24,326 nucleotides of DNA from positions 1 to 24,326 of the IMG/VR virus record IMGVR_UViG_3300037585_002108; one strand, given 5' to 3'. The position numbers and the translations under genes are program-made. Below are positions 331-19,866 of the stretch, one piece after another. Numbering within the stretch: the stretch's first letter is position 1; every line of letters starts with the position of its first letter. The notes beneath the pieces were generated by a model. The model saw only the letters and a list, made by a program, of their open reading frames with translations, ran no database searches and was not told the DNA's origin. This stretch comes from a virus.

Positions 331-345
331 TGGTTTTCCCCTTTG

Positions 346-379
346 CCCCAAAATGGGGTAGTAGTTGCCGATTGTCAAC
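346..379 (-). promoter_or_regulatory. Promoter/operator copy 1 (minus strand)
   Basis: Reading the minus strand, TTGACA (378-373) is followed after 17 bases by CATTTT (355-350). The -10 lies inside the palindrome CCCCAAAATGGGG (346-358). The -35 lies inside a second inverted repeat, TTGCCGATTGTCAA on the plus strand (365-378). The arrangement matches the copies at 759-792, 10178-10211 and 19807-19840, so it is a reused promoter/operator unit. It drives the genes at 330 and 169. Confidence 0.6.
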
Positions 380-394
380 CCGCTAAAATAAAAA

Positions 395-442
395 AAACGT
401 ATTAGGCCGCGATTTTTGCCACCTAATACGTTTATTTTTAGC
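395..442 (-). terminator. Rho-independent terminator after the 438-698 gene
   Basis: A perfect 12-base-pair stem (395-406 with 422-433) encloses a 15-base loop. On the minus strand it is followed directly by a run of seven T then ATTTT, the classical intrinsic terminator form. It separates the 438-698 gene from the next promoter at 346-379, only about 16 bases further on. A weaker T-rich stretch on the plus side means some bidirectional action is possible. Its right side overlaps the last codons of the 438-698 gene. Confidence 0.75.
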
Positions 443-8562: not shown

Positions 8563-9027
8563 CTAGCCAATTTGCGGCTTCTGTGGAACCCTAAACCTTT
8601 TGGGGGTATAACCAACCCCGTTACTAGCGCAAGCTTCTCTAAGGGCGTTATTTAGAGGCCAGAGGGGCATTCCAAAATCACCATAGCCCTGTTGTATTCC
8701 TTCAAAGTAATACTTTGATGGTGGGGCAATATCATAGCCATTCATTACATACGCCATAATCATATCCCTGCCCCATTGCCAGTATTGCTTTCGGTACAGT
8801 TTTGGATACCCCTCATAGCGATCTAGGGTCAGTTCGCATTCGGGGGTGATGTTCCAAAGAACAACGGGCGCGGTGTCCCCTTTTGATTTTATAATGTCGG
8901 CCACTCCTTTGAAGCAAAGCTTATAGTCTGGCAATTGGAAAATCCTATGCGGGGTGGCGGCGGGGCATCGTGTAGCCATTTGCGCCTTGTTTAGGTTAGA
9001 GCCATATGCGGCATAGTATGTAGTCAT
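8563..9027 (-). CDS. Gamma-glutamylcyclotransferase-like (AIG2/GGCT) protein, 154 aa
   Basis: The N-terminus YYAAYGSNLN (4-13) is the GGCT/AIG2 signature that binds the gamma-glutamyl substrate. LDRYEGYP (69-76) holds the expected catalytic Glu at position 72. Members release 5-oxoproline from gamma-glutamyl amines and peptides. ATG 9027 has an AAGGAGC ribosome binding site and lies 22 bases after the amidoligase stop, so the two are co-transcribed. Amidoligase and GGCT-like genes are a known association, in which one makes an amide linkage and the other may trim or cyclise it. The substrate here is unknown. Confidence 0.85.
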   Translation of the reverse strand: MTTYYAAYGSNLNKAQMATRCPAATPHRIFQLPDYKLCFKGVADIIKSKGDTAPVVLWNITPECELTLDRYEGYPKLYRKQYWQWGRDMIMAYVMNGYDIAPPSKYYFEGIQQGYGDFGMPLWPLNNALREACASNGVGYTPKRFRVPQKPQIG

Positions 9028-9049
9028 TGGTTTGCTCCTTGTGAGCGGC

Positions 9050-10132
9050 TTACGCCGCCATTGCGGTGGGGTTAAAGTGTTCTATGCGGCCTTGCGCATA
9101 AGTTGCGGTTTCGGCGTTCACGCCTCTTAAGAATGAGTCAGTAGTGTTGCCCGTTAAGTTGCCAAACCAAGTAACAAATTCCTCAGTGAATGTGTTTCCG
9201 CGTTGGCGGGTGCGGGTTCCCGTGTTTGGGTTTATTGCTCCAACTTCGTAAAGCGCTAAAAGTTCGTCATTGGTAAATGATCCAACCACTTCGCCATTCG
9301 AGTTGAACAACGGACGAGGGCGGCTAACGTGATGCTCACAATGCAAGTTAAATCCTTGCGCCTCAAGCAACTCGCGCAATTCCGCGTATGGGCGTTGCTG
9401 ACCTTGGCGGCGATATTCTTTGTTGACGGGTGCGCCCGATGTTGCGGCTTGTTGTGACGCATCGCAAAAGTCGCTCATAAGCTTGACCCAATTTGACACC
9501 TTGTCAAAGTCGGTGGTTCCTGAGTGTTGGCGAAACTCTATAGTGCCATAACGTGCGAGGGGAGTTAAGTTTACTTTTCTATAACGATCACCACCGCCGC
9601 AATTAGCCATATCGCGGACGGAACCACGATGCCCTTCAACGCTACGGAGAAGCGAAGAGTTGCGGCTGATGTTGGCGCACCAACGGCTATTGCGGCGGCT
9701 GTTTGGCATCATGCTATCAAAGTTATCTTCAAAGAGAGCATAGCGCCGAACGATATTCTTAATTTGTTGGGTTGTCATATTGTCCCAACTAATGTGTAAG
9801 TGTAACCCGCAAGTCACGTTTACATTCATATCGGGGTGAGAGTTCATCGCGTCGAGAACTTTTTCTAGTTCATCAAGACCCGCTTGCCCTCTTAATATTG
9901 GGGAAACAACTTCGCCACCGATTGCATCGCTTCTGCTGTAGTCGATGTGGCGGCTTACGGAAGCATCACTAACAATTTTCCAATGGTTGCGGACGTTGTG
10001 ATTATAACCTTCACGGTGAACCGCAATTCCTGTGCCTTGCAATTCGGTTTGCATATGAATTTCAAGAGCGCTTAATTGAGCGCCTACAAATTCGATTTCA
10101 ACTCCAAAGGTTTTTTCTTCAAGTCCGAACAT
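9050..10132 (-). CDS. Amidoligase_2-family enzyme, 360 aa
   Basis: The COOH-NH2 ligase fold of this family is shown by KTFGVEIEFVGA (7-18, the GxExE motif), GGEVVSPIL, CGLHLHISWDN and YGTIEFRQHSGT. The acidic and histidine residues in these motifs bind metal and ATP in relatives. The family is predicted to make amide bonds in unusual peptides, metabolites or protein modifications. Start 10132 is preferred because of its GGAGAAAA ribosome binding site. The frame could begin at 10162 with ten extra residues. The gene lies directly under promoter/operator copy 10178-10211 and is followed by the GGCT-like gene. Its target in the phage or host is unknown. Confidence 0.88.
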   Translation of the reverse strand: MFGLEEKTFGVEIEFVGAQLSALEIHMQTELQGTGIAVHREGYNHNVRNHWKIVSDASVSRHIDYSRSDAIGGEVVSPILRGQAGLDELEKVLDAMNSHPDMNVNVTCGLHLHISWDNMTTQQIKNIVRRYALFEDNFDSMMPNSRRNSRWCANISRNSSLLRSVEGHRGSVRDMANCGGGDRYRKVNLTPLARYGTIEFRQHSGTTDFDKVSNWVKLMSDFCDASQQAATSGAPVNKEYRRQGQQRPYAELRELLEAQGFNLHCEHHVSRPRPLFNSNGEVVGSFTNDELLALYEVGAINPNTGTRTRQRGNTFTEEFVTWFGNLTGNTTDSFLRGVNAETATYAQGRIEHFNPTAMAA

Positions 10133-10177
10133 TGTCTTTTCTCCGTTTTGGGGTAGCGCCAACTACCGTTTCCATGT

Positions 10178-10211
10178 ACCCAATATGGGGCATAAGTTGA
10201 CAACCGTCAAC
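10178..10211 (-). promoter_or_regulatory. Promoter/operator copy 3 (minus strand, amidoligase)
   Basis: On the minus strand, TTGACG (10210-10205), 17 bases, CATATT (10187-10182). The -10 is inside ACCCAATATGGGG (10178-10190), one mismatch from the perfect palindrome. The -35 is inside GTTGACAACCGTCAAC (10196-10211). The leader after it (TTGGGTA, AT-containing bases, GAAAC) resembles that of the copy at 19807-19840, suggesting the two promoters share recent ancestry. Confidence 0.65.
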
Positions 10212-10235
10212 CCCTAAAATCAAAAAAACAACCTC

Positions 10236-10284
10236 TGGACAATTTTTTTTTACGAGTATAGTCTGAGAATATCCCATATTGGGG
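10236..10284 (+). promoter_or_regulatory. Plus-strand promoter candidate and operator before the accessory island
   Basis: TGGACA (10236-10241) and TATAGT (10257-10262) are spaced by 15 bases, shorter than ideal. Ten bases downstream lies TCCCATATTGGGG (10272-10284), a one-mismatch copy of the CCCC-N5-GGGG element. This operator would sit at or just past the transcription start of the ParB-like gene. It lies about 60 bases from the amidoligase promoter, so one regulator could control both directions. Confidence 0.4.
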
Positions 10285-10298
10285 GAAGGAAACCACTT

Positions 10299-10883
10299 AT
10301 GAGCGATAAAAACTGGGCCGCGACAGATATAATTTATCTCAATACGTCAGAGCTTGCTCCGTATGACAAGAACCCCAAGGATCATCCTGACTCTCAAATT
10401 GAGCAAATATCAAACAGTATTAGGCAATGGGGGTGGACGATCCCCATATTGGTTGATGAAAAGTTCAGTGTTATTGCGGGGCATGGCAGGCTGTATGCTG
10501 CGCAAAATTTGGGGCTAGATGAAGTCCCGTGTATAGTCGCTGAGGGGTGGTCTGAAGAGCAAAAGAAAGCATACGTTATTGCTGATAATAAGATAGCAGA
10601 AAATGGCGGGTGGAACAAAAAGCTGTTGTATGATGAGTTAAGTTCGTTGCCAGATACTTTTGATATTGGCTTGACGGGTATGATGGATGAGTTTCAATCA
10701 ATGAGTTTTGCCGCAAAAATATTGCCGACATTCGCGGATGATTTTGTTGATGGTGATTCTTTGAGCAGGGCGCAAGACAAACTGAGCAATGCTATAGAAG
10801 TTGCTTCAACCCCTAAAGATCAAGGCGGGGTAGAGTGCTTGTGTCCGTATTGCGGGGAAAAATTTACGATTACGGGGCACTGA
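10299..10883 (+). CDS. ParB/Srx-domain protein with C-terminal CxxC tail, 194 aa
   Basis: Residues 10-115 match the ParB-N domain that in phages often precedes a DNA methyltransferase: LNTSELAPYDKNPKDHPDSQ, IPILVD, VIAGHGRLYAAQNLG with G61-H62-G63-R64, and AYVIADNKIAENGGW. The methyltransferase part is absent. Instead the protein ends in a short region with ECLCPYCGEKF (C180, C182, C185), a cysteine knuckle that could bind metal or a partner. ParB-type folds act as nucleases, NTP-dependent DNA clamps or Srx-like enzymes, and the activity here is not determined. It starts the plus-strand island behind the operator at 10272-10284, with GGGGGAAGG as ribosome binding site, and its stop overlaps the next start (TGATG). 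Confidence 0.8.
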   Translation: MSDKNWAATDIIYLNTSELAPYDKNPKDHPDSQIEQISNSIRQWGWTIPILVDEKFSVIAGHGRLYAAQNLGLDEVPCIVAEGWSEEQKKAYVIADNKIAENGGWNKKLLYDELSSLPDTFDIGLTGMMDEFQSMSFAAKILPTFADDFVDGDSLSRAQDKLSNAIEVASTPKDQGGVECLCPYCGEKFTITGH

Positions 10884-11281
10884 TGTTAGAGCATAAACAC
10901 TTACTGGCTATGGGCGATATGCGATACCCGCCAACCTCTACAGAACTGTTAGAGGGGTGGATGGAAAAATTAGTCGCAGATTTGAAAATGAAAATTTTGA
11001 TAAAGCCCAAGGCTGTTTATTGCGATACTGTGGGCAATAAGGGGATGACTTGCATTTGCGCTATAGAAACCTCTCATATTGTCATGCACACTTGGGATGC
11101 TTCCATACCCATTAGAATGGCTCATGTTAATGGCGCAAAAATGCAGCTTGATGTTTACACTTGCAGCAACCTTGACCTCTCAACTGTTTGGGATTCTTTG
11201 AAGCAATTTGGGATTAGGAGTGTCAGGTACAAGTTTTATGACAGAAAAAGTAACTTCCATCTATTAGGCCAAAGCAGATAA
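10883..11281 (+). CDS. speD-like: S-adenosylmethionine decarboxylase (SpeD)-like protein, 132 aa
   Basis: The bacterial/archaeal AdoMetDC core is visible: IETSHIVMHTWDAS (61-74), matching the self-cleaving SH...HTW region with Ser64 as the expected pyruvoyl residue, and LDVYTCSNLD (89-98) with Cys94. Authentic enzymes usually have Glu right before this Ser; here it is Thr63, with Glu one place earlier. AdoMetDC makes the aminopropyl donor for spermidine. Some homologues have changed to other amino-acid decarboxylations, so the substrate is uncertain. Start 10883 overlaps the ParB-like stop. No polyamine synthase is nearby, which argues for a special role within the island. Confidence 0.75.
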   Translation: MLEHKHLLAMGDMRYPPTSTELLEGWMEKLVADLKMKILIKPKAVYCDTVGNKGMTCICAIETSHIVMHTWDASIPIRMAHVNGAKMQLDVYTCSNLDLSTVWDSLKQFGIRSVRYKFYDRKSNFHLLGQSR

Positions 11282-11296
11282 GGGGTGCAAATCAAA

Positions 11297-12079
11297 GTGG
11301 AAAAATACATCTTACTTGCTGCGGTAGATGACAGAAGAGAGCTATTGAGTGATTGCTTGGCGTCCTTAAGGGTGTTTGATCCAAGTTGGACATTGGTTAT
11401 AGTGGGGCAAAAATTCAGCCAAGAAAGAAAATTAGAAATAGAAAAATCAGTAGCTGATGGGTCTATTTTCTTATGGGAAGATGAGGCTCTTGGAATGCAC
11501 AACGCAAGGCTGATTGGCTTGTCAAAGATAAGGTCTTTGTCCAAAAATCATGTAGTAGCTTCCGTTGATGATGACATGATCTTTTTACCCCACTCAAATT
11601 TTGACCGAATGGCAGAAATTGCCTCAATGTATAAAATGGGCTTAATAAGTGGTAACTGGGTAAGATCGAAGAAATCTCTTCCTAAAAAAATATTAAAAAT
11701 GAAGGATGAGGCAAAAAAGCAAGCAATAGTTTACACAGCGGGCGGCTTGGTTTTCCGCGAGTGGGTTACTGAAGAAATCATAAGTCTAGGGGTGAATAAC
11801 TTTTGGTGCGACAACACAGAGTGGTCTATGGCGTCTTATCTGGCGGGCTATCACAACGCAAGATATTTGGGCAGCATGGCTGTCCATAAGGTTTTATCTC
11901 AAGGTGGCAGAAAGTCTTATGTGGAAAGCGTCCAACGAAAGCTGCCTAATCCAAGGTTTGTAAAAGTAAGGCCCGCAAAAGTCAGCGGCTTTGATGGATA
12001 CCATATCCCGTGCAGTTCAGACATTACTTCTGAGGCAAAGGCCGAAAGAAAAAGAAGGATTGCGGGGATGGGCGGGTGA
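11297..12079 (+). CDS. GT-A-like glycosyltransferase, 260 aa, GTG start
   Basis: The protein looks like a nucleotide-sugar-dependent GT-A enzyme: ILLAAVDDRRELLSDCLASL at the N-terminus, LGMHNARLIGL (65-75), then VASVDDDMIF with the metal-binding DDD at 91-93. TAGGLVF and NFWCDNTEWSMASYLAG further on form a possible acceptor side. No signal peptide or membrane segment is seen, so it acts in the cytoplasm, for example on DNA, nucleotides or a protein. GTG 11297 is chosen because TAAGGGG lies 11 bases upstream; GTG 11285 is the alternative. The stop overlaps the start of the next gene (GTGA). The acceptor is unknown. Confidence 0.65.
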   Translation: MEKYILLAAVDDRRELLSDCLASLRVFDPSWTLVIVGQKFSQERKLEIEKSVADGSIFLWEDEALGMHNARLIGLSKIRSLSKNHVVASVDDDMIFLPHSNFDRMAEIASMYKMGLISGNWVRSKKSLPKKILKMKDEAKKQAIVYTAGGLVFREWVTEEIISLGVNNFWCDNTEWSMASYLAGYHNARYLGSMAVHKVLSQGGRKSYVESVQRKLPNPRFVKVRPAKVSGFDGYHIPCSSDITSEAKAERKRRIAGMGG

Positions 12080-13290
12080 AAATTTACCTAAACGAAACTG
12101 TATTCGAGGCATCTTTAAATAGAATAAGGCGGTTATTTGACGAGTTCGAGAACGTTTGTGTTTTCTTTTCTGGTGGTAAGGACAGCACAATAACGCTTGA
12201 GCTTGCTCTTATCGTGGCGAGGGAGAGAAACAAATTGCCGTTGAAAGTTTATTTCATAGATCAAGAGGCTGAGTGGCAGTTTGTAATAGATTACGTCAAA
12301 GAGGTTATGTCCCGTGATGAGGTGGAGCCGTTTTGGGTTCAAGTGCCTATCTTTTTTCCCAACTCTCTGTCTCAAGGAACGCCATTTATTACGCTTTGGG
12401 AAGAGGGCAAAAAGTGGATGCGGGAAAAAGACCCCATTGCCATCAAGGATAATCACGTTCTTGAGCCAAATATAGGCGGCGAAGTGAAGTTGGGCTTTTG
12501 GTATAAATACTTTGAGAGGGCTGCGAAAAACTTATTTCCTGATTCGCCCGCTTGTTTTCTGGGTGGTATGCGGGCGCAAGAAAGCCCCGCAAGGTTCACG
12601 GCTGTTACGGCGGCTGCTACTTACAAGGATATTACCTACGGTAAGATATTAAATAAAAAATTGAACCATTACACGTTCTACCCGATTTACGATTGGGATG
12701 TCAGCGATGTTTGGAAGGCAATCCATGACAATAAGTGGAGCTATTGCAAGCTTTATGATGAGCATTACAAATATGGAGTTGCCATCAAGGACATGAGGGT
12801 TTCAAGCTTAATTCACGAAACTGCCTTGAAGAACCTATTCTTTTTGCATGAGCTAGAAAAAGACACATGGAACGCGCTGAATGAGAGAATGGATGGGGTC
12901 AACATGGCAAAGCATATGGACAAGGATGGTATGCTTATGGTGTCCGAACTTCCAGTTATGTTCGACAGTTGGAAGGAATACAGAGACTTTTTAACGGAAA
13001 AGCTAATAACTAATGAAAAATATAAAAGCACTTTCAAGTCTGAGTGGGCAAAGATGGATCAAACCTTTTCTGAGCTAAGAACGCCAGATGATCTTTATAA
13101 GCGGCAAGTTGTTTGCGTATTGGCGGGTGATGTGGAGTTTACGAAGTTGCGGCCTTATCTTAACTCTTCTTCGCTGATCGCTTATGATAAGTGGCGCAAA
13201 GGGGTGTTAAGGATCACAGATGACCTGTCATCGCTGAAGCAAATCAAGGAAAAATACTTAATGGAAATGGGTGGCGCTCTTGGAAAATAA
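12076..13290 (+). CDS. ibrA-like: IbrA-like PAPS-reductase-family protein (DUF3440), 404 aa
   Basis: VCVFFSGGKDSTITLEL (28-44) is the PP-loop of the PAPS reductase/ATP pyrophosphatase fold. YFIDQEAEWQFVIDYV, GGMRAQES and YPIYDWDVSDVWKAI follow in the order of the IbrA/DUF3440 group. At about 400 residues it is longer than sulfate-assimilation reductases, as IbrA is. IbrA and IbrB act together in Escherichia coli to raise expression of prophage-encoded Eib immunoglobulin-binding proteins. The chemistry is not known, but the fold activates a substrate by adenylation. GTG 12076 overlaps the glycosyltransferase stop, and an IbrB-like gene follows, which confirms the pairing. Confidence 0.85.
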   Translation: MKIYLNETVFEASLNRIRRLFDEFENVCVFFSGGKDSTITLELALIVARERNKLPLKVYFIDQEAEWQFVIDYVKEVMSRDEVEPFWVQVPIFFPNSLSQGTPFITLWEEGKKWMREKDPIAIKDNHVLEPNIGGEVKLGFWYKYFERAAKNLFPDSPACFLGGMRAQESPARFTAVTAAATYKDITYGKILNKKLNHYTFYPIYDWDVSDVWKAIHDNKWSYCKLYDEHYKYGVAIKDMRVSSLIHETALKNLFFLHELEKDTWNALNERMDGVNMAKHMDKDGMLMVSELPVMFDSWKEYRDFLTEKLITNEKYKSTFKSEWAKMDQTFSELRTPDDLYKRQVVCVLAGDVEFTKLRPYLNSSSLIAYDKWRKGVLRITDDLSSLKQIKEKYLMEMGGALGK

Positions 13291-13291
13291 A

Positions 13292-13987
13292 ATGAGTCAC
13301 AAGGAAATGGCTGAATTATTAAAGCACTCAATACTTGAGGACATCCAATCTATTGCGGGTGAGCAAGACAAGATAGACTTTTTGAACGACCTAAAAGCAT
13401 ATTTGCATGAGATAAGCCCCTTGGCGGCCCAACCTGTTGATAATGTGGAGTGGGTAAGCGTGGATAGGGTTGAGGCCAATAACTACAACCCAAACAACGT
13501 TGCCAATAAGGAAATGCAGTTGCTGCATACATCCATTAAGCACGATGGATATACGCAACCTGTGGTGACTATATTTGATAAGAAGGCTGATAAGTACATT
13601 ATCATAGACGGCTTTCACAGATACTTCACTTGTAAGAACTCCCCAGAAATCAAAGCGGCTAACAAGGGGCGGCTTCCAGTTGTTGTTTTGAATAAAGATA
13701 TGAATGAGAGAATGGCGGCAACTGTACGTCATAACCGAGCGCGAGGCAGTCACTCTGTCAATGGAATGTCAAATATGGTATTTAAGATGCTCGACAACGG
13801 TTGGTCAGACGAAGACATTTGCAACCACTTAGGGATGGGCGCAGATGAGCTTTTAAGGCTCAAGCACATAACAGGCTTCTCTAAGTTGTTTGAGGACGCT
13901 GAGTACAACAAGGCTTGGGTGACGAAAAAGCAAATTCAAATACAATCGAAATATAAGAAAGAACTGAAAGAATCTGATATAGAGTGA
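13292..13987 (+). CDS. ibrB-like: IbrB-like ParB-domain protein, 231 aa
   Basis: A ParB-N domain spans about residues 52-150: VEWVSVDRVEANNYNPN, YTQPVVTIFD, IIIDGFHRYF (D106 to R110) and TVRHNRARGSHSVNGMSNMV (144-163). The HNRARG segment and the following HTH-like part (GWSDEDICNHLGMGADELLR, LKHITG) are features I associate with IbrB. ATG 13292 follows the IbrA stop by one base with GGAAA as ribosome binding site; GTG 13271 inside the IbrA gene is the alternative. The partner just upstream makes an IbrA/IbrB pair likely. It may bind DNA or regulate transcription. Confidence 0.83.
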   Translation: MSHKEMAELLKHSILEDIQSIAGEQDKIDFLNDLKAYLHEISPLAAQPVDNVEWVSVDRVEANNYNPNNVANKEMQLLHTSIKHDGYTQPVVTIFDKKADKYIIIDGFHRYFTCKNSPEIKAANKGRLPVVVLNKDMNERMAATVRHNRARGSHSVNGMSNMVFKMLDNGWSDEDICNHLGMGADELLRLKHITGFSKLFEDAEYNKAWVTKKQIQIQSKYKKELKESDIE

Positions 13988-13994
13988 TAGCGAA

Positions 13995-14555
13995 ATGCCC
14001 ACAAAAATAACGCCAGAACTTGAAATCAAAATGCGCGATGAGTTTATCTTTGGCTATGTGGCAGAAGATGGAGAGCGTAAGTATCCAACCATAGAAGCGC
14101 TGCAACGCCGACACGATGTTGCAATAGCAACGTTGCGCCGAAAAGCAGATAAGGGCGATTGGCAAAAAGAAAAAAACCGCCGCCAAACGGAATTGCAAGA
14201 TAAGCTAGACGCTGAACGCTTAGAGCGCTTGGTTGAGGGCGGTAAGCGACTTGACGATAATGCCCTGCAAATAGCGCAAGCTATGCTCACTAGGGTAGGG
14301 CGCAAATTGCAACGGGCGTTCCGACTAGAAGAAGATGACCCAGATGTTGAGCGGTTGGGTACAGATGAAATGCGAGAGTTGTCACAGGTAACAATCAACG
14401 CTCAAAAAGTGGGAAAACTAGCGCTGGGCGAGGCGCAAGAAATAAGCAAGGTATCCGCAGATGTCAGTAATCCAGAAGCCTTCCAAGAAGTTATGGAACA
14501 ACTTGACGAGATTGCAGCGGCAAGGTCATCACGCATCAAGCACACTTTACAATGA
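13995..14555 (+). CDS. terS: Terminase small subunit-like protein, 186 aa
   Basis: The N-terminal part (residues 20-60) has an HTH-like segment (YPTIEALQRRHDVAIATLRR, KADKGDW) as in phage small terminases that bind the packaging site. It is followed by a long helical region (60-150) suited to ring oligomerisation, with LSQVTINAQKVGKLALGEAQ near the end. Its position directly before the large terminase, overlapping it by 95 bases, is the strongest support. Direct sequence similarity is modest, as is normal for small terminases. Confidence 0.72.
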   Translation: MPTKITPELEIKMRDEFIFGYVAEDGERKYPTIEALQRRHDVAIATLRRKADKGDWQKEKNRRQTELQDKLDAERLERLVEGGKRLDDNALQIAQAMLTRVGRKLQRAFRLEEDDPDVERLGTDEMRELSQVTINAQKVGKLALGEAQEISKVSADVSNPEAFQEVMEQLDEIAAARSSRIKHTLQ

Positions 14556-15774
14556 TTGGTTAGCTACTGCGAGAGACAGTCAATATACGCCTCCTAAAGA
14601 TATTTATGGGGATTGGCAGATATGGCTTATTCTCGCGGGGCGTGGGTGGGGTAAGACCAGAACGGGGGCAATGGATGCCTTGGTATATGCTTTGCGTAAC
14701 CCAGAGGTGCAAGTAGCGGTTGTCACGCCTACATTCGGGGATATTAGGCGCGTGGCATTCGGCGGGGTTTCGGGGATACTGAAGTTTTTACCCAAAGAAT
14801 GTATGCTGGAAGGTCGAGGGCGCGGGTATAACGCCACATCGTCAGAAATAAATTTATTCAATGGGTCAAAAATTATGGGCTTTTCCGCTACTGAGCCTGA
14901 TCGTCTAAGAGGGCCGCAGTTTCATAGGGCGTGGTGCGATGAGATAGCGGCTTGGCAATACCCTGACACGTTTGACCAATTAATGTTTGGCTTGCGATTA
15001 GGGGTAAATCCTCAATGCGTAATAACTACAACCCCAAAGCCATCACCATTAATTCGCGGGCTTATTCGTAGGAAGGGCGGGGTTGTTATCACCCGTGGGT
15101 CTACATTTGAAAACGCTGCCAATCTAGCGCCCGTTGCTATTGCTCAATTAAAGGAGAAGTACGAGGGGACAAGGCTAGGCCGTCAAGAGCTTTATGCAGA
15201 AGTGCTTGATGACCTAGAGGGGGCGCTATGGTCGTATTCAATGCTTGAGGGGGCTTATTGCGCTGTAGAGTCACAGCCTGAGTATGTTCGCAAAGTTGTT
15301 GCAGTTGATCCCGCTGTTACAAGCGGAGAAGAAAGCGATGAGACAGGTATTGTTGTGGCGGGTATAGGTGAGGATGGCAGATATTACGTCTTGGAAGATG
15401 CAACAATGAAGGGAAGTCCTGACGCTTGGGCGAGGCGGGCTTGCGGTCTTTTACATGAGCATAACGCTGATCGAATCATCGCAGAAGTTAATAACGGTGG
15501 AGATTTGGTCGAAAGAGTGGTAAGAACTATAGACAGAAGTGTTCCATATACCGCCGTAAGAGCCTCACGGGGCAAACTGGTAAGGGCAGAGCCTATTGCA
15601 GCGCTCTATGAGCAAGGGAAAGTAAGTCATGTGGGTAAGTTTAAAGAGCTGGAAGAGCAAATGACCAGTTATACCCCAACAACAGGTAAGTCACCTGATA
15701 GGCTTGATGCTTTAGTATGGGCGCTTACAGAATTAAGTAGATCATCAGGACAAGCTGTTTGGAGAATTAGCTAA
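14461..15774 (+). CDS. terL: Terminase large subunit, 437 aa
   Basis: The packaging ATPase has Walker A LAGRGWGKTRTG (58-69), Walker B WCDE (158-161) and a TTTPKP coupling motif. The nuclease domain has VVAVDPAVTSG (D283) and PDRLDALVWAL (D416) as metal-binding acidic residues. It cuts concatemeric DNA and drives it into the prohead through the portal. ATG 14461 has AAGG as ribosome binding site but lies 95 bases inside the small-terminase gene. Later in-frame starts are only TTG codons, for example 14503, so the exact N-terminus is uncertain. The stop overlaps the portal start (TAATG). Confidence 0.93.
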   Translation: MSVIQKPSKKLWNNLTRLQRQGHHASSTLYNDWLATARDSQYTPPKDIYGDWQIWLILAGRGWGKTRTGAMDALVYALRNPEVQVAVVTPTFGDIRRVAFGGVSGILKFLPKECMLEGRGRGYNATSSEINLFNGSKIMGFSATEPDRLRGPQFHRAWCDEIAAWQYPDTFDQLMFGLRLGVNPQCVITTTPKPSPLIRGLIRRKGGVVITRGSTFENAANLAPVAIAQLKEKYEGTRLGRQELYAEVLDDLEGALWSYSMLEGAYCAVESQPEYVRKVVAVDPAVTSGEESDETGIVVAGIGEDGRYYVLEDATMKGSPDAWARRACGLLHEHNADRIIAEVNNGGDLVERVVRTIDRSVPYTAVRASRGKLVRAEPIAALYEQGKVSHVGKFKELEEQMTSYTPTTGKSPDRLDALVWALTELSRSSGQAVWRIS

Positions 15775-17121: not shown

Positions 17122-18990
17122 TTGGCTTTTCCTGTTTACATTAAGGCTACAAGTAAAAAGCGTATATCCATCCAGAAGGAAATACGCGAAGTAAACCGAT
17201 TGAGATTAAGGTTTGAGCGCGGGATGGCTCGTAAGCTATCTAGTCTCTTTGCTAAAACGGGCAGACAGGCCGCACAAGCCTATTCTAGTGGGGGTAACAT
17301 ACCTCTAGCCACAAGGGACTTAGAAAAGGAACTTATGGCTGTATTCACGGCGCAATACGGGTCTGTAATAGATACGTTTGCGGGGCGTGTAACAGGGGAT
17401 AGGAAAGAGGCTTTTACGTTTCAGTTTTTGGTTGATAGGTTTTTGCGGCGTCACGGGGCTAGTGCAGTAACGGGGGTTGCTGTAACCACGCAATTTCACA
17501 TCAGAAGGGCTATCCAAGCGGGGGAAGATGAAGGTTTAGGCGTTGATAAGACAGCCAAGTTAATTACAGAAAGAACATCGGGGGCTATCGGTAGGGCAAG
17601 GGCTGCAACAATCGCAAGAACTGAAACCCACGCCGCAGCGTCATACGCTACTGATGAGGCGACCAAGCAATTAAACTTGCCCAACCAAAAGAAGCGGTGG
17701 GTATCTGTGGGTGATGCAAGGACAAGGCCAAGCCATGCCGCCGCAAACGGTCAAGAGGTGTTGATAGATGAGGCGTTTCTAATACGGGACAAGGGCGCAG
17801 TTATCGCCATGAAATATCCGCATGATGGAAATGGCGGGGCATCTAATAATATCAATTGTCGGTGCTTGGCGGTTTATTACACAGAAGAAGATGATTTGTT
17901 AGATGACTCAAAGCCGTCTTTTGCACCAGTAGAAGGCGGGGCAGTTGCAGATGATCCTAAACCCACGGTGGAAAATTTCTTTAGGCCAAGAGACAAGGCA
18001 ATCAATGCTGCAACTCTTGTTATCCCGACCAAAAAGAACGCACTCAAGGAAATGCAGGATAGTGTTGAGGAGGCAAACAAAGATGATATTTATCAAGAGA
18101 CGTTTGAGATATTTGTTGGCCTACAAGTCCATAAAGGGCCATTCGTAGGACACTGGCAAGGTAGGAATGATAAGGATAACGGAAGGGTATCATTAAGCGG
18201 ATTTAGCAAGGAAAGCGTAGCTTATGTGAATCAAGGAAGCAAAGAGCTTAACGCAATGGCTGATTGGCTTGGGATTTCTAGGATAAGGGGCTACAAAACC
18301 ACGGGCAGAGCTTCAGACAACGGGAATCAAGGCGGCGGGGTGATGGCTCTTAACAAGAAGGCTATTAATGCTTATGTTTCTGTGTCTAACGCAGACCTAA
18401 AATCGGTTACTCAAATATTGGAAGGTTTAGATAAGCAGAAAATTAATTATAGGGAAGCGCAGAGTAGTTTGGTAGGATATAGGAATAGAAGAGATGCACC
18501 TGATTATGATCCAGACAGAGAGGATGAATTGTTTATTGCTTATATAGAGGAACAAAAAAAATATAACGCATTACTGGAAGAGTATTCTTTGTCAAAAGAG
18601 CTTATAGCTAGGGGCGGGGGCGTCACAACCTACCAAAGAGGCGATAATTTCTCAACTGCTCCTTGGTCAGCAAAAGAGTATTTTTCTGATGGCTTGGATA
18701 AAACAAGGGTTTTAATGTATCATGAATTTGCTCACCACGTTCACCAGACCTATAAGTTAACTGGCTTATATAATGTTGGGGCAGCTCCACTAGAGAAAAG
18801 GCTAATTAGCTTCTTTAAAAACAATTCAAAAAACAATTTGGAGGCCTTTGCTCCTAGTAGGTACTCTATGACCAATTACAGAGAATACTTTGCGGAAAGT
18901 TATGCAATGTATATGATGGACAAAGCGGAAGATTTGCATCCTGAGATGATTGAGATTATTAAGGACATTCTGCAAGAGAGAGGTAAGTGA
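17122..18990 (+). CDS. MuF-like head protein fused to an HExxH metallopeptidase-like domain, 622 aa
   Basis: Residues 1-255 are a phage Mu gpF-like head morphogenesis domain: ARTETHAAASYATDEA (165-180), DARTRPSHAAANGQ (198-211) and INCRCLA (244-250). A linker and an unrecognised region (about 260-500) follow. The C-terminal part has MYHEFAHHVHQ with H534, E535 and H538 (HEXXH), and a downstream YREYFAESYAMYM with E588/E592 as third ligand candidates, a zincin pattern. MuF proteins with toxin-like C-termini are known in temperate phages, so this may be an injected effector; a head-maturation protease is the alternative. TTG 17122 has a GGAG ribosome binding site. Hand counts show GC falling from about 60 per cent in the MuF part to 28-43 per cent in the C-terminal part. 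Confidence 0.82.
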   Translation: MAFPVYIKATSKKRISIQKEIREVNRLRLRFERGMARKLSSLFAKTGRQAAQAYSSGGNIPLATRDLEKELMAVFTAQYGSVIDTFAGRVTGDRKEAFTFQFLVDRFLRRHGASAVTGVAVTTQFHIRRAIQAGEDEGLGVDKTAKLITERTSGAIGRARAATIARTETHAAASYATDEATKQLNLPNQKKRWVSVGDARTRPSHAAANGQEVLIDEAFLIRDKGAVIAMKYPHDGNGGASNNINCRCLAVYYTEEDDLLDDSKPSFAPVEGGAVADDPKPTVENFFRPRDKAINAATLVIPTKKNALKEMQDSVEEANKDDIYQETFEIFVGLQVHKGPFVGHWQGRNDKDNGRVSLSGFSKESVAYVNQGSKELNAMADWLGISRIRGYKTTGRASDNGNQGGGVMALNKKAINAYVSVSNADLKSVTQILEGLDKQKINYREAQSSLVGYRNRRDAPDYDPDREDELFIAYIEEQKKYNALLEEYSLSKELIARGGGVTTYQRGDNFSTAPWSAKEYFSDGLDKTRVLMYHEFAHHVHQTYKLTGLYNVGAAPLEKRLISFFKNNSKNNLEAFAPSRYSMTNYREYFAESYAMYMMDKAEDLHPEMIEIIKDILQERGK

Positions 18991-19775: not shown

Positions 19776-19806
19776 CTTGTTTGCTCCGTGGTTTGTGTTT
19801 CTATAT

Positions 19807-19840
19807 ACCCAATATGGGGCATAGGTTGCCAATTGTCAAC
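19807..19840 (-). promoter_or_regulatory. Promoter/operator copy 4 (minus strand)
   Basis: On the minus strand, TTGACA (19839-19834), 17 bases, CATATT (19816-19811). The -10 is inside ACCCAATATGGGG (19807-19819). The -35 is inside the inverted repeat GTTGCCAATTGTCAAC (19825-19840). It drives the three-gene antisense cassette 19775-19214. Confidence 0.65.
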
Positions 19841-19866
19841 CCCTTAAATGAAAAAATAATCACCTA

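Follow-up and report, generated by a model that had tools for sequence, protein, structure and literature searches.

What does a phage gain from encoding a ParB-domain protein, a SpeD-like decarboxylase, a glycosyltransferase and the protein pair IbrA and IbrB back to back, immediately ahead of its terminase? The question is raised by a 24,326-nt viral fragment (positions 1-24,326 of record IMGVR_UViG_3300037585_002108; hereafter the window), in which an island of five consecutive plus-strand genes at 10299-13987, overlapping or spaced by no more than 3 nt, precedes the genes for the small and large terminase subunits (TerS and TerL). A preliminary description of the sequence had proposed that the five proteins act together, possibly making a modified base or nucleotide, or reprogramming host expression. 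We conclude that the island is probably one version of a modular phage DNA-base hypermodification cassette whose chemistry is not yet described, because in relatives the same slot holds enzymes known to decorate DNA. Of the two earlier suggestions, the modified base is thus the better one, being supported by slot swaps with TET/ADDT and with Dpd/Que enzymes, and host-expression reprogramming has less support.

The slot upstream of the terminase

The slot was compared among 46 TerL relatives of the window with at least 2.5 kb of upstream sequence. It was occupied by IbrA-IbrB in 19 cases, by TET/JBP in 18, by a glucosyl-HMC (hydroxymethylcytosine)-type glycosyltransferase in two and by none of these in seven. 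IbrA-IbrB and TET/JBP were never found together in the slot of this terminase lineage, and neither TET/JBP nor ADDT was found in any of 145 IbrA loci (individual loci are cited below by L numbers). Pfam searches of the alternative slot genes returned Tet_JBP (7.7e-20), the amino acid:DNA transferase ADDT (3.7e-23) and the TET-associated glycosyltransferase TAGT (1.7e-19); the TET version also has ADDT, a P-loop kinase, a glutamine amidotransferase, an FAD oxidoreductase or TAGT. Each of the 18 TET loci retains ParB1, the first gene of the window's island. Mapped on the TerL tree, the four slot labels need 8 changes, the minimum possible being 3, and an IbrA-IbrB locus (L198) has a TET locus (L202) as its sister (support 99/98), the branches of the two being long. 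The IbrA-IbrB genes hence occupy a genomic slot in common with established DNA-modifying enzymes.

A second, independent slot was found at the left end of Bclasvirinae mycobacteriophages, just before the terminase. It reads ParB-DpdA-QueC-QueD-QueE-FolE-terminase in Phantasmagoria (Rosebushvirus), ParB-'queuine transferase'-x-P-loop protein in Mithril and ParB-x-x-IbrA-IbrB-terminase in the Mycobacterium phage Daisy; Baee resembles Mithril, with a deacetylase in addition. The DNA of Rosebush (Bclasvirinae) carries dPreQ0 in ~28% of G and resisted several restriction enzymes (PMC6884629), and phage CRB2 has been described in like terms, its ORF1 being put forward as a DpdB candidate (PMC6392294). 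The right end of the Microbacterium phage Hendrix encodes two glycosyltransferases, a fusion of the WTMG family (see below) to a methyltransferase, a GNAT acetyltransferase and IbrA; the left end has TerL, three ParB genes and a small gene.

As a separate observation, phrog_6059, named 'queuine tRNA-ribosyltransferase' (Mithril gp2, L214:785-1759), shares its profile with Tet_JBP (L144, 2.1e-8; L202, 3.7e-44), and the name appears to be a misnomer for a dioxygenase-like enzyme of DNA modification.

A recurrent cassette with a conserved core

Eighty viral loci with IbrA relatives were compared. Of 59 IbrA representatives at 90% identity, 29 had 4 kb visible on both sides. The common order is ParB1-[SpeD]-WTMG-exchangeable transferases-IbrA-IbrB-TerS-TerL, and scores of contigs repeat these families in this order, a recurrence beyond chance; 345/360 junctions either overlap or are no wider than 4 nt. 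All 29 fully visible representatives have IbrB and ParB1, so that no IbrA lacking these two neighbours was seen among the fully visible viral-contig loci; WTMG accompanies 25/29, and TerL lies within 4 kb in 19/29. A reverse search from WTMG alone recovered 29 new contigs, 27 of which contain IbrA, while the other two end inside the cassette. The neighbourhood search that the preliminary description had called for found its five-gene set again: L117 reads ParB1-SpeD-WTMG-GTw-IbrA-IbrB-TerS-TerL (GTw being the window's glycosyltransferase), that is, the window's five genes plus WTMG. Gene order is variable, with ParB1 lying downstream of IbrB in L013 and L016-L018, and from this relocation we argue for functional linkage over simple common descent.

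Judged by these comparisons of sequence, the core of the cassette is ParB, IbrA and IbrB, with WTMG as a near-universal sixth family and with SpeD and the glycosyltransferase optional and exchangeable. Joint action of the gene products is supported by this recurrent linkage, although the unit is not the fixed set of five first envisaged. Independent occurrence in relatives, which the preliminary description had named as evidence against its proposal, was seen only for the optional modules (SpeD, for instance, is also found apart from IbrA) and for a bare IbrA-IbrB pair in some more distant phages, the ParB-IbrA-IbrB core being linked in the viral contigs wherever the locus was fully visible.

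WTMG is an otherwise unnamed 90-residue family, named here after its motif (e.g. L057:617-901 and relatives), for which there is no Pfam or PHROG model. Its predicted structure (pLDDT 94) gave an uninformative comparison with the PDB (best Z 3.4), and one nameless viral homologue was found in BFVD. WTMG is fused to SpeD in L002, and elsewhere to an S-adenosylmethionine (SAM, AdoMet)-dependent methyltransferase. A WTMG search of genome contigs returned one 3.8-kb metagenomic contig and pointed to no bacterial host.

IbrA, IbrB and ParB1

The window's IbrA combines a PP-loop domain (Pfam PAPS_reduct, 6.1e-15) with a following DUF3440 (4.6e-7), both above cut-off, matches phrog_2302 (1.2e-81) and is adjacent to the ParB-domain protein IbrB, as expected of an IbrA/IbrB pair. 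The PP-loop motif SGGKDST (residues 32-38) is conserved across 99 distinct IbrA, among which no cysteine is conserved at 92% or more. PAPS reductases need a catalytic cysteine; accordingly assignment to CysH failed on the lack of this conserved residue, and the cysH model scored far below its cut-off. Because SGGKDST is kept and no cysteine is, PAPS reduction or sulfur transfer by IbrA appears unlikely, and adenylation of a substrate for attack by a nucleophile appears more likely.

This bears on two alternative explanations. PHROG files phage IbrA-type proteins as auxiliary/moron 'PAPS reductases', from which the cassette could be taken for a set of auxiliary metabolic genes, with sulfur assimilation (PAPS reductase) and polyamine synthesis (SpeD) feeding the infection; phage SpeDs do make decarboxylated AdoMet, putrescine or agmatine (PMC9992855, PMC10407285). 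We find this very unlikely, given the absence of a conserved cysteine from IbrA, and since SpeD is optional, polyamine supply cannot be the function of the operon. The second explanation, to which we give almost no credence, is a Dnd-like DNA phosphorothioation in which IbrA stands in place of DndC and a ParB protein in place of DndB. IbrA does match DndC weakly (8.7e-9 in PADLOC; 24.6 bits, 1.1e-5, for TIGR03183, far below its cut-off of 290.4), but it lacks conserved cysteines, no DndA, DndD or DndE match was found among the cassette genes examined, and we know of no role for glycosyl-, acetyl- or methyltransferases in phosphorothioation.

IbrB (Pfam ParB_N, 6.4e-6; phrog_2159, 8e-72) carries the motifs DGFHR (residues 113-117) and RHNRARG (153-159), conserved among 95 distinct IbrB. 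ParB1 (ParB_N, 7.9e-8; phrog_620, 7.1e-50) ends in a zinc-ribbon-like CPYC, and by these profile matches both proteins are assigned to the ParB/Srx superfamily. Residues 3-132 of ParB1 match the DNA methyltransferase family phrog_498 (5.6e-45), which relates ParB1, at the level of sequence, to the N-terminal portion of ParB-methyltransferase fusion proteins of phages. Solved-structure searches with IbrB, SpeD and IbrA gave nothing useful. The families named in the preliminary description are confirmed by Pfam and PHROG for ParB, SpeD, IbrA and IbrB, and by predicted structure only for the glycosyltransferase.

Exchangeable tailoring modules

GTw has no sequence-family match in Pfam, PHROG or other profile libraries, a sequence search of phages was empty and a single-query sequence search of viral contigs returned nothing. 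Its AlphaFold2 model (pLDDT 88.8) adopts a GT-A fold, resembling GalNAc-T2 (Foldseek 6e-9) and B4GALNT1 (Z 19.3, root-mean-square deviation 2.9, 190 residues aligned). A DDD sequence at residues 95-97, a metal motif of the DxD type, is invariant, and GTw is clearly predicted to be a GT-A glycosyltransferase. Relatives of GTw adjoin IbrA in L008, L016, L018, L023 and L117; in L115 GTw and IbrA lie in one frame, which could be explained by an assembly indel.

SpeD (Pfam AdoMet_dc, 2.6e-10, 41 bits against a cut-off of 25; PHROG 3125) has Ser64, His69 and Cys94 at the self-processing and catalytic positions of class 1b, the roles of which have been described (PMC10407285). The residue preceding the serine is Thr in the window and Glu in the L117 type, and the sequence types of the window/L002/L129, of L117 and of L022 are distinct. 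SpeD is present in 3/30 unbiased IbrA representatives, and its distribution on the IbrA tree takes three or more changes along supported branches; counts among 94 cassettes are inflated by the inclusion of SpeD-selected loci. An apparent near-universality of SpeD proved wrong: a single-linkage cluster (c2) had merged SpeD, WTMG and the SAM-methyltransferase through their fusions, and was split by hidden Markov models. Likewise, a pairing of SpeD with the amino-methyltransferase (12/18 vs 21/76, p 0.005) was lost in a tree-aware test, and transfer from decarboxylated AdoMet by that enzyme, MTc7, is only a lead.

Overall, the exchangeable modules comprise at least three glycosyltransferase families (GTw, GTc11 and GTc17), GNAT acetyltransferases, SpeD, a UDP-sugar-type epimerase, DPPW-type amino-methyltransferases (MTc7) related to PF01555 (8e-6, just under cut-off), a class I SAM-methyltransferase, mostly WTMG-fused, and a possible 2-oxoglutarate-oxygenase-like protein recognised by eye only. 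The SAM-methyltransferase was considered as a CmoA and rejected, having no CmoA match. The IbrA tree requires 24 changes for all modules together. In 94 distinct cassettes GNAT was in no case found with the SAM-methyltransferase (0/37 vs 28/57), and in comparisons of independent pairs their differences always run in opposite directions (median p 0.03); Fisher tests of module association are inflated by relatedness, and this exclusion alone survives the independent pairs. The modules have the appearance of alternative caps for one shared intermediate. In some relatives the glycosyltransferase is accompanied by the epimerase (L134:3190-4155) and a nucleotidyltransferase-like protein (L188:6039-6461), which suggests a dedicated sugar donor.

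The same enzymes might decorate a target other than phage DNA: a tRNA, a protein of the virion or the terminase, or a small nucleotide that would block signalling-based defences of the host. The substrates of PP-loop ATPases, GNATs and class I methyltransferases are diverse, the SAM-methyltransferase domain resembles generic methyltransferases of small molecules and tRNA, and the products of SpeD are small metabolites. We nevertheless hold such a target to be unlikely, as the slot is held in common with the DNA-specific TET/JBP, amino acid:DNA transferase and DpdA, MTc7 is related to DNA methylases, if below cut-off, and ParB1 is akin to the ParB part of the phage DNA methyltransferase fusions.

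A proposed pathway for base modification

The comparisons show which genes the cassette contains, that they are linked and exchanged, and that the slot is shared; that DNA is the substrate we infer, and we propose the following route, in which modification would precede packaging. ParB1 would serve as a DNA-bound NTPase partner, as does DpdB, a ParB-like ATPase acting in base insertion in the 7-deazaguanine system (PMC12839542); a ParB gene also heads the thymine hypermodification operon of phage Tonitrus (PMC11955845). The PP-loop of IbrA would adenylate a carbonyl or carboxyl on the base or on a base-linked handle, and IbrA with IbrB would then swap the adenylated group for an amine or other nucleophile. 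In a phage pathway with ParBc genes nearby, the asparagine-synthetase-like AMP-forming ligase CmoY amidates carboxymethylcytosine (PMC12783734). In the window phage, SpeD would supply a decarboxylated building block, which could be decarboxylated AdoMet or an amine (agmatine or putrescine, for example), and a sugar would be added by GTw, acetyl- or methyltransferases providing alternative caps in other phages. Virion DNA decorated in this way would be protected against host nucleases. Our confidence in the details, an amine-bearing and glycosylated base in the window phage, is modest.

The tRNA lysidine and agmatidine synthases adenylate a tRNA base. A bolder version of the proposal, offered tentatively and rather doubtful as a whole, would make IbrA-IbrB and WTMG the core of a new DNA-base chemistry: IbrA would adenylate a base carbonyl or carboxyl and attach an amine, here a SpeD-derived amine or aminopropyl group, and glycosylation would yield a base bearing both polyamine and sugar. 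The bacterial and prophage IbrAB 'regulators' would then act by modifying DNA.

Several observations weigh against a hypermodification cassette. A shared slot is a common position, not a common substrate, and no modified nucleoside has been reported for cassette carriers in the literature found. WTMG is absent from the window, a 24-kb fragment. The window's IbrA deviates at two conserved positions (N244S and H246I), reading RVSSLIHET around residues 244-246 (12805-12813) where other IbrA have RVSNxHHET (N and H in at least 92%), so that its substrate or its activity may not be the usual one. In other phages SpeD serves metabolism (PMC9992855), and its link to the methyltransferase did not survive the tree-aware test. 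Lastly, some more distant phages (Streptococcus CHPC1230, Flavobacterium FCL-2) have a bare IbrA-IbrB pair, given which the core may serve some other role, or a further one, and IbrA/IbrB have been named as co-activators of prophage gene expression (PMC4490671), in literature that, as far as found, leaves the function of the pair unexplained. On the strength of that annotation and of the bare pair in CHPC1230, the two proteins could act as co-activators of transcription that redirect the expression of host or prophage genes, with the other genes as passengers. The strict linkage to ParB1, WTMG and the transferases and the mutual exclusion with TET cassettes make this a distinctly improbable account, and regulation could itself result from DNA modification.

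If the slot argument is right, IbrA-type proteins form the core of a widespread DNA hypermodification family with interchangeable caps, extending over the 145 loci analysed here and cultured Microbacterium and Mycobacterium phages. It would mean a new base chemistry in the phage-host arms race, with a testable prediction on laboratory phages, and would offer a mechanism to look for behind the reported effects of IbrAB on prophage genes. Phage DNA hypermodification is known in general; the IbrA-IbrB-WTMG core is not described as such a system in the literature found, a body from which subscription journals and preprints were outside scope. No paper there joins IbrA or PAPS-reductase-like proteins with phage hypermodification, in agreement with the preliminary description, which knew of no account of this gene set.

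Layout of the island and neighbouring genes

The gene order and near-gapless packing first described, with TGATG and GTGA junctions, agree with the coordinates (Table 1), as does the terminase downstream, TerS being the first gene of the packaging module after the cassette.

Table 1 Coordinates of the island and its flanking features in the window
Feature	Position	Strand	Remarks
Divergent operator-like region	10168-10289	.	Between the amidoligase gene (-) and ParB1 (+); putative function
ParB1	10299-10883	+	ParB/Srx-domain protein, 194 aa
SpeD-like pyruvoyl decarboxylase	10883-11281	+	132 aa; 1-nt TGATG overlap with ParB1
GTw, predicted GT-A fold glycosyltransferase	11285-12079	+	264 aa; 3-nt gap after SpeD
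IbrA	12076-13290	+	404 aa; 4-nt GTGA overlap with GTw
IbrB	13271-13987	+	238 aa; 20-nt overlap with IbrA
TerS (terminase small subunit)	13995-14555	+	7 nt past IbrB; homologous to TerS of L002, L003, L005 and L010
TerL (terminase large subunit)	14461-15774	+	Overlaps TerS; identified by relatives and tree; anchor of the slot comparison

The operator that had been placed upstream is borne out as a pattern, a repeat copy and an inverted core directly before ParB1. The 60-nt direct repeat D1 has four copies in the window (336-395, 749-808, 10168-10227 and 19797-19856) and a core of ACCCAATATGGGGCATAAGTTGACAA..GTCAACCCC; in the inverted repeat I3 (10273-10289) its CCCAATATGGGG core recurs in inverted orientation (CCCATATTGGGG arm). 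The four-copy element is probably a dispersed operator or promoter.

The low GC content (33-37% in hand-counted rows of four of the genes) from which separate acquisition of the island had been argued was mistaken. The measured values are 44.3% for ParB1, 41.1% for SpeD, 42.5% for GTw, 42.6% for IbrA and 42.4% for IbrB, against 48.1% for TerS, 49.2% for the capsid gene and 45.2% for the window. We rejected the argument because the dip of the island (42.7%) is below one standard deviation of 500-nt windows (3.4).

Divergent from the cassette lies an Amidoligase_2 (2e-37) and GGCT gene pair (8563-10162, minus strand), which also stands beside IbrA or terminase loci elsewhere, e.g. L002, L005, L069, L074, L197 and L208, and may make or remove a gamma-glutamyl group. 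The C-terminal part of a MuF-type head protein (17122-18990, plus strand) contains HEFAHH and has weak matches, short of the cut-off, to zinc metallopeptidase families (1e-4); it is possibly a peptidase domain.

Comparison with known systems

The TET/JBP operons (TET with TAGT, or TET with ADDT and a P-loop kinase) share with the cassette the slot upstream of TerS, a ParB gene in first place and glycosyltransferase partners; that of Tonitrus reads ParB-tet-aGPT-Pplase2-5hmU kinase (PMC11955845). The cassette differs in its core of IbrA-IbrB(-WTMG), with TET/JBP and ADDT absent from its loci. The 7-deazaguanine operon (ParB/DpdB-like, DpdA, QueC/D/E, FolE) likewise begins with ParB and in Bclasvirinae takes the left end before the terminase, as IbrA-IbrB do. 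In contrast, profile searches found no DpdA, QueD, QueE, FolE or other preQ0 synthesis gene among the window's five, and QueC was not among the matches of IbrA in Pfam, PHROG or the other profile libraries.

The likeness to the CmoA-CmoX-CmoY system (PMC12783734) lies in an ATP-dependent AMP-forming ligase, nearby ParBc genes and the idea of an altered SAM donor, whereas no CmoA, C5-carboxymethyltransferase or C5-methyltransferase is among the window's five and IbrA belongs to a different PP-loop family. The window's IbrA and IbrB are by sequence members of the prophage co-activator pair (phrog_2302/phrog_2159), but unlike the stand-alone pair they are embedded in a multi-enzyme operon beside the terminase. 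Finally, phage SpeD and its ornithine and arginine decarboxylase derivatives (PMC9992855, PMC10407285) are of the same class 1b family with the same Ser/His/Cys triad; the SpeD of the cassette is set apart by its genetic tie to the ParB-IbrA-IbrB operon, which in L002 extends to fusion with WTMG.

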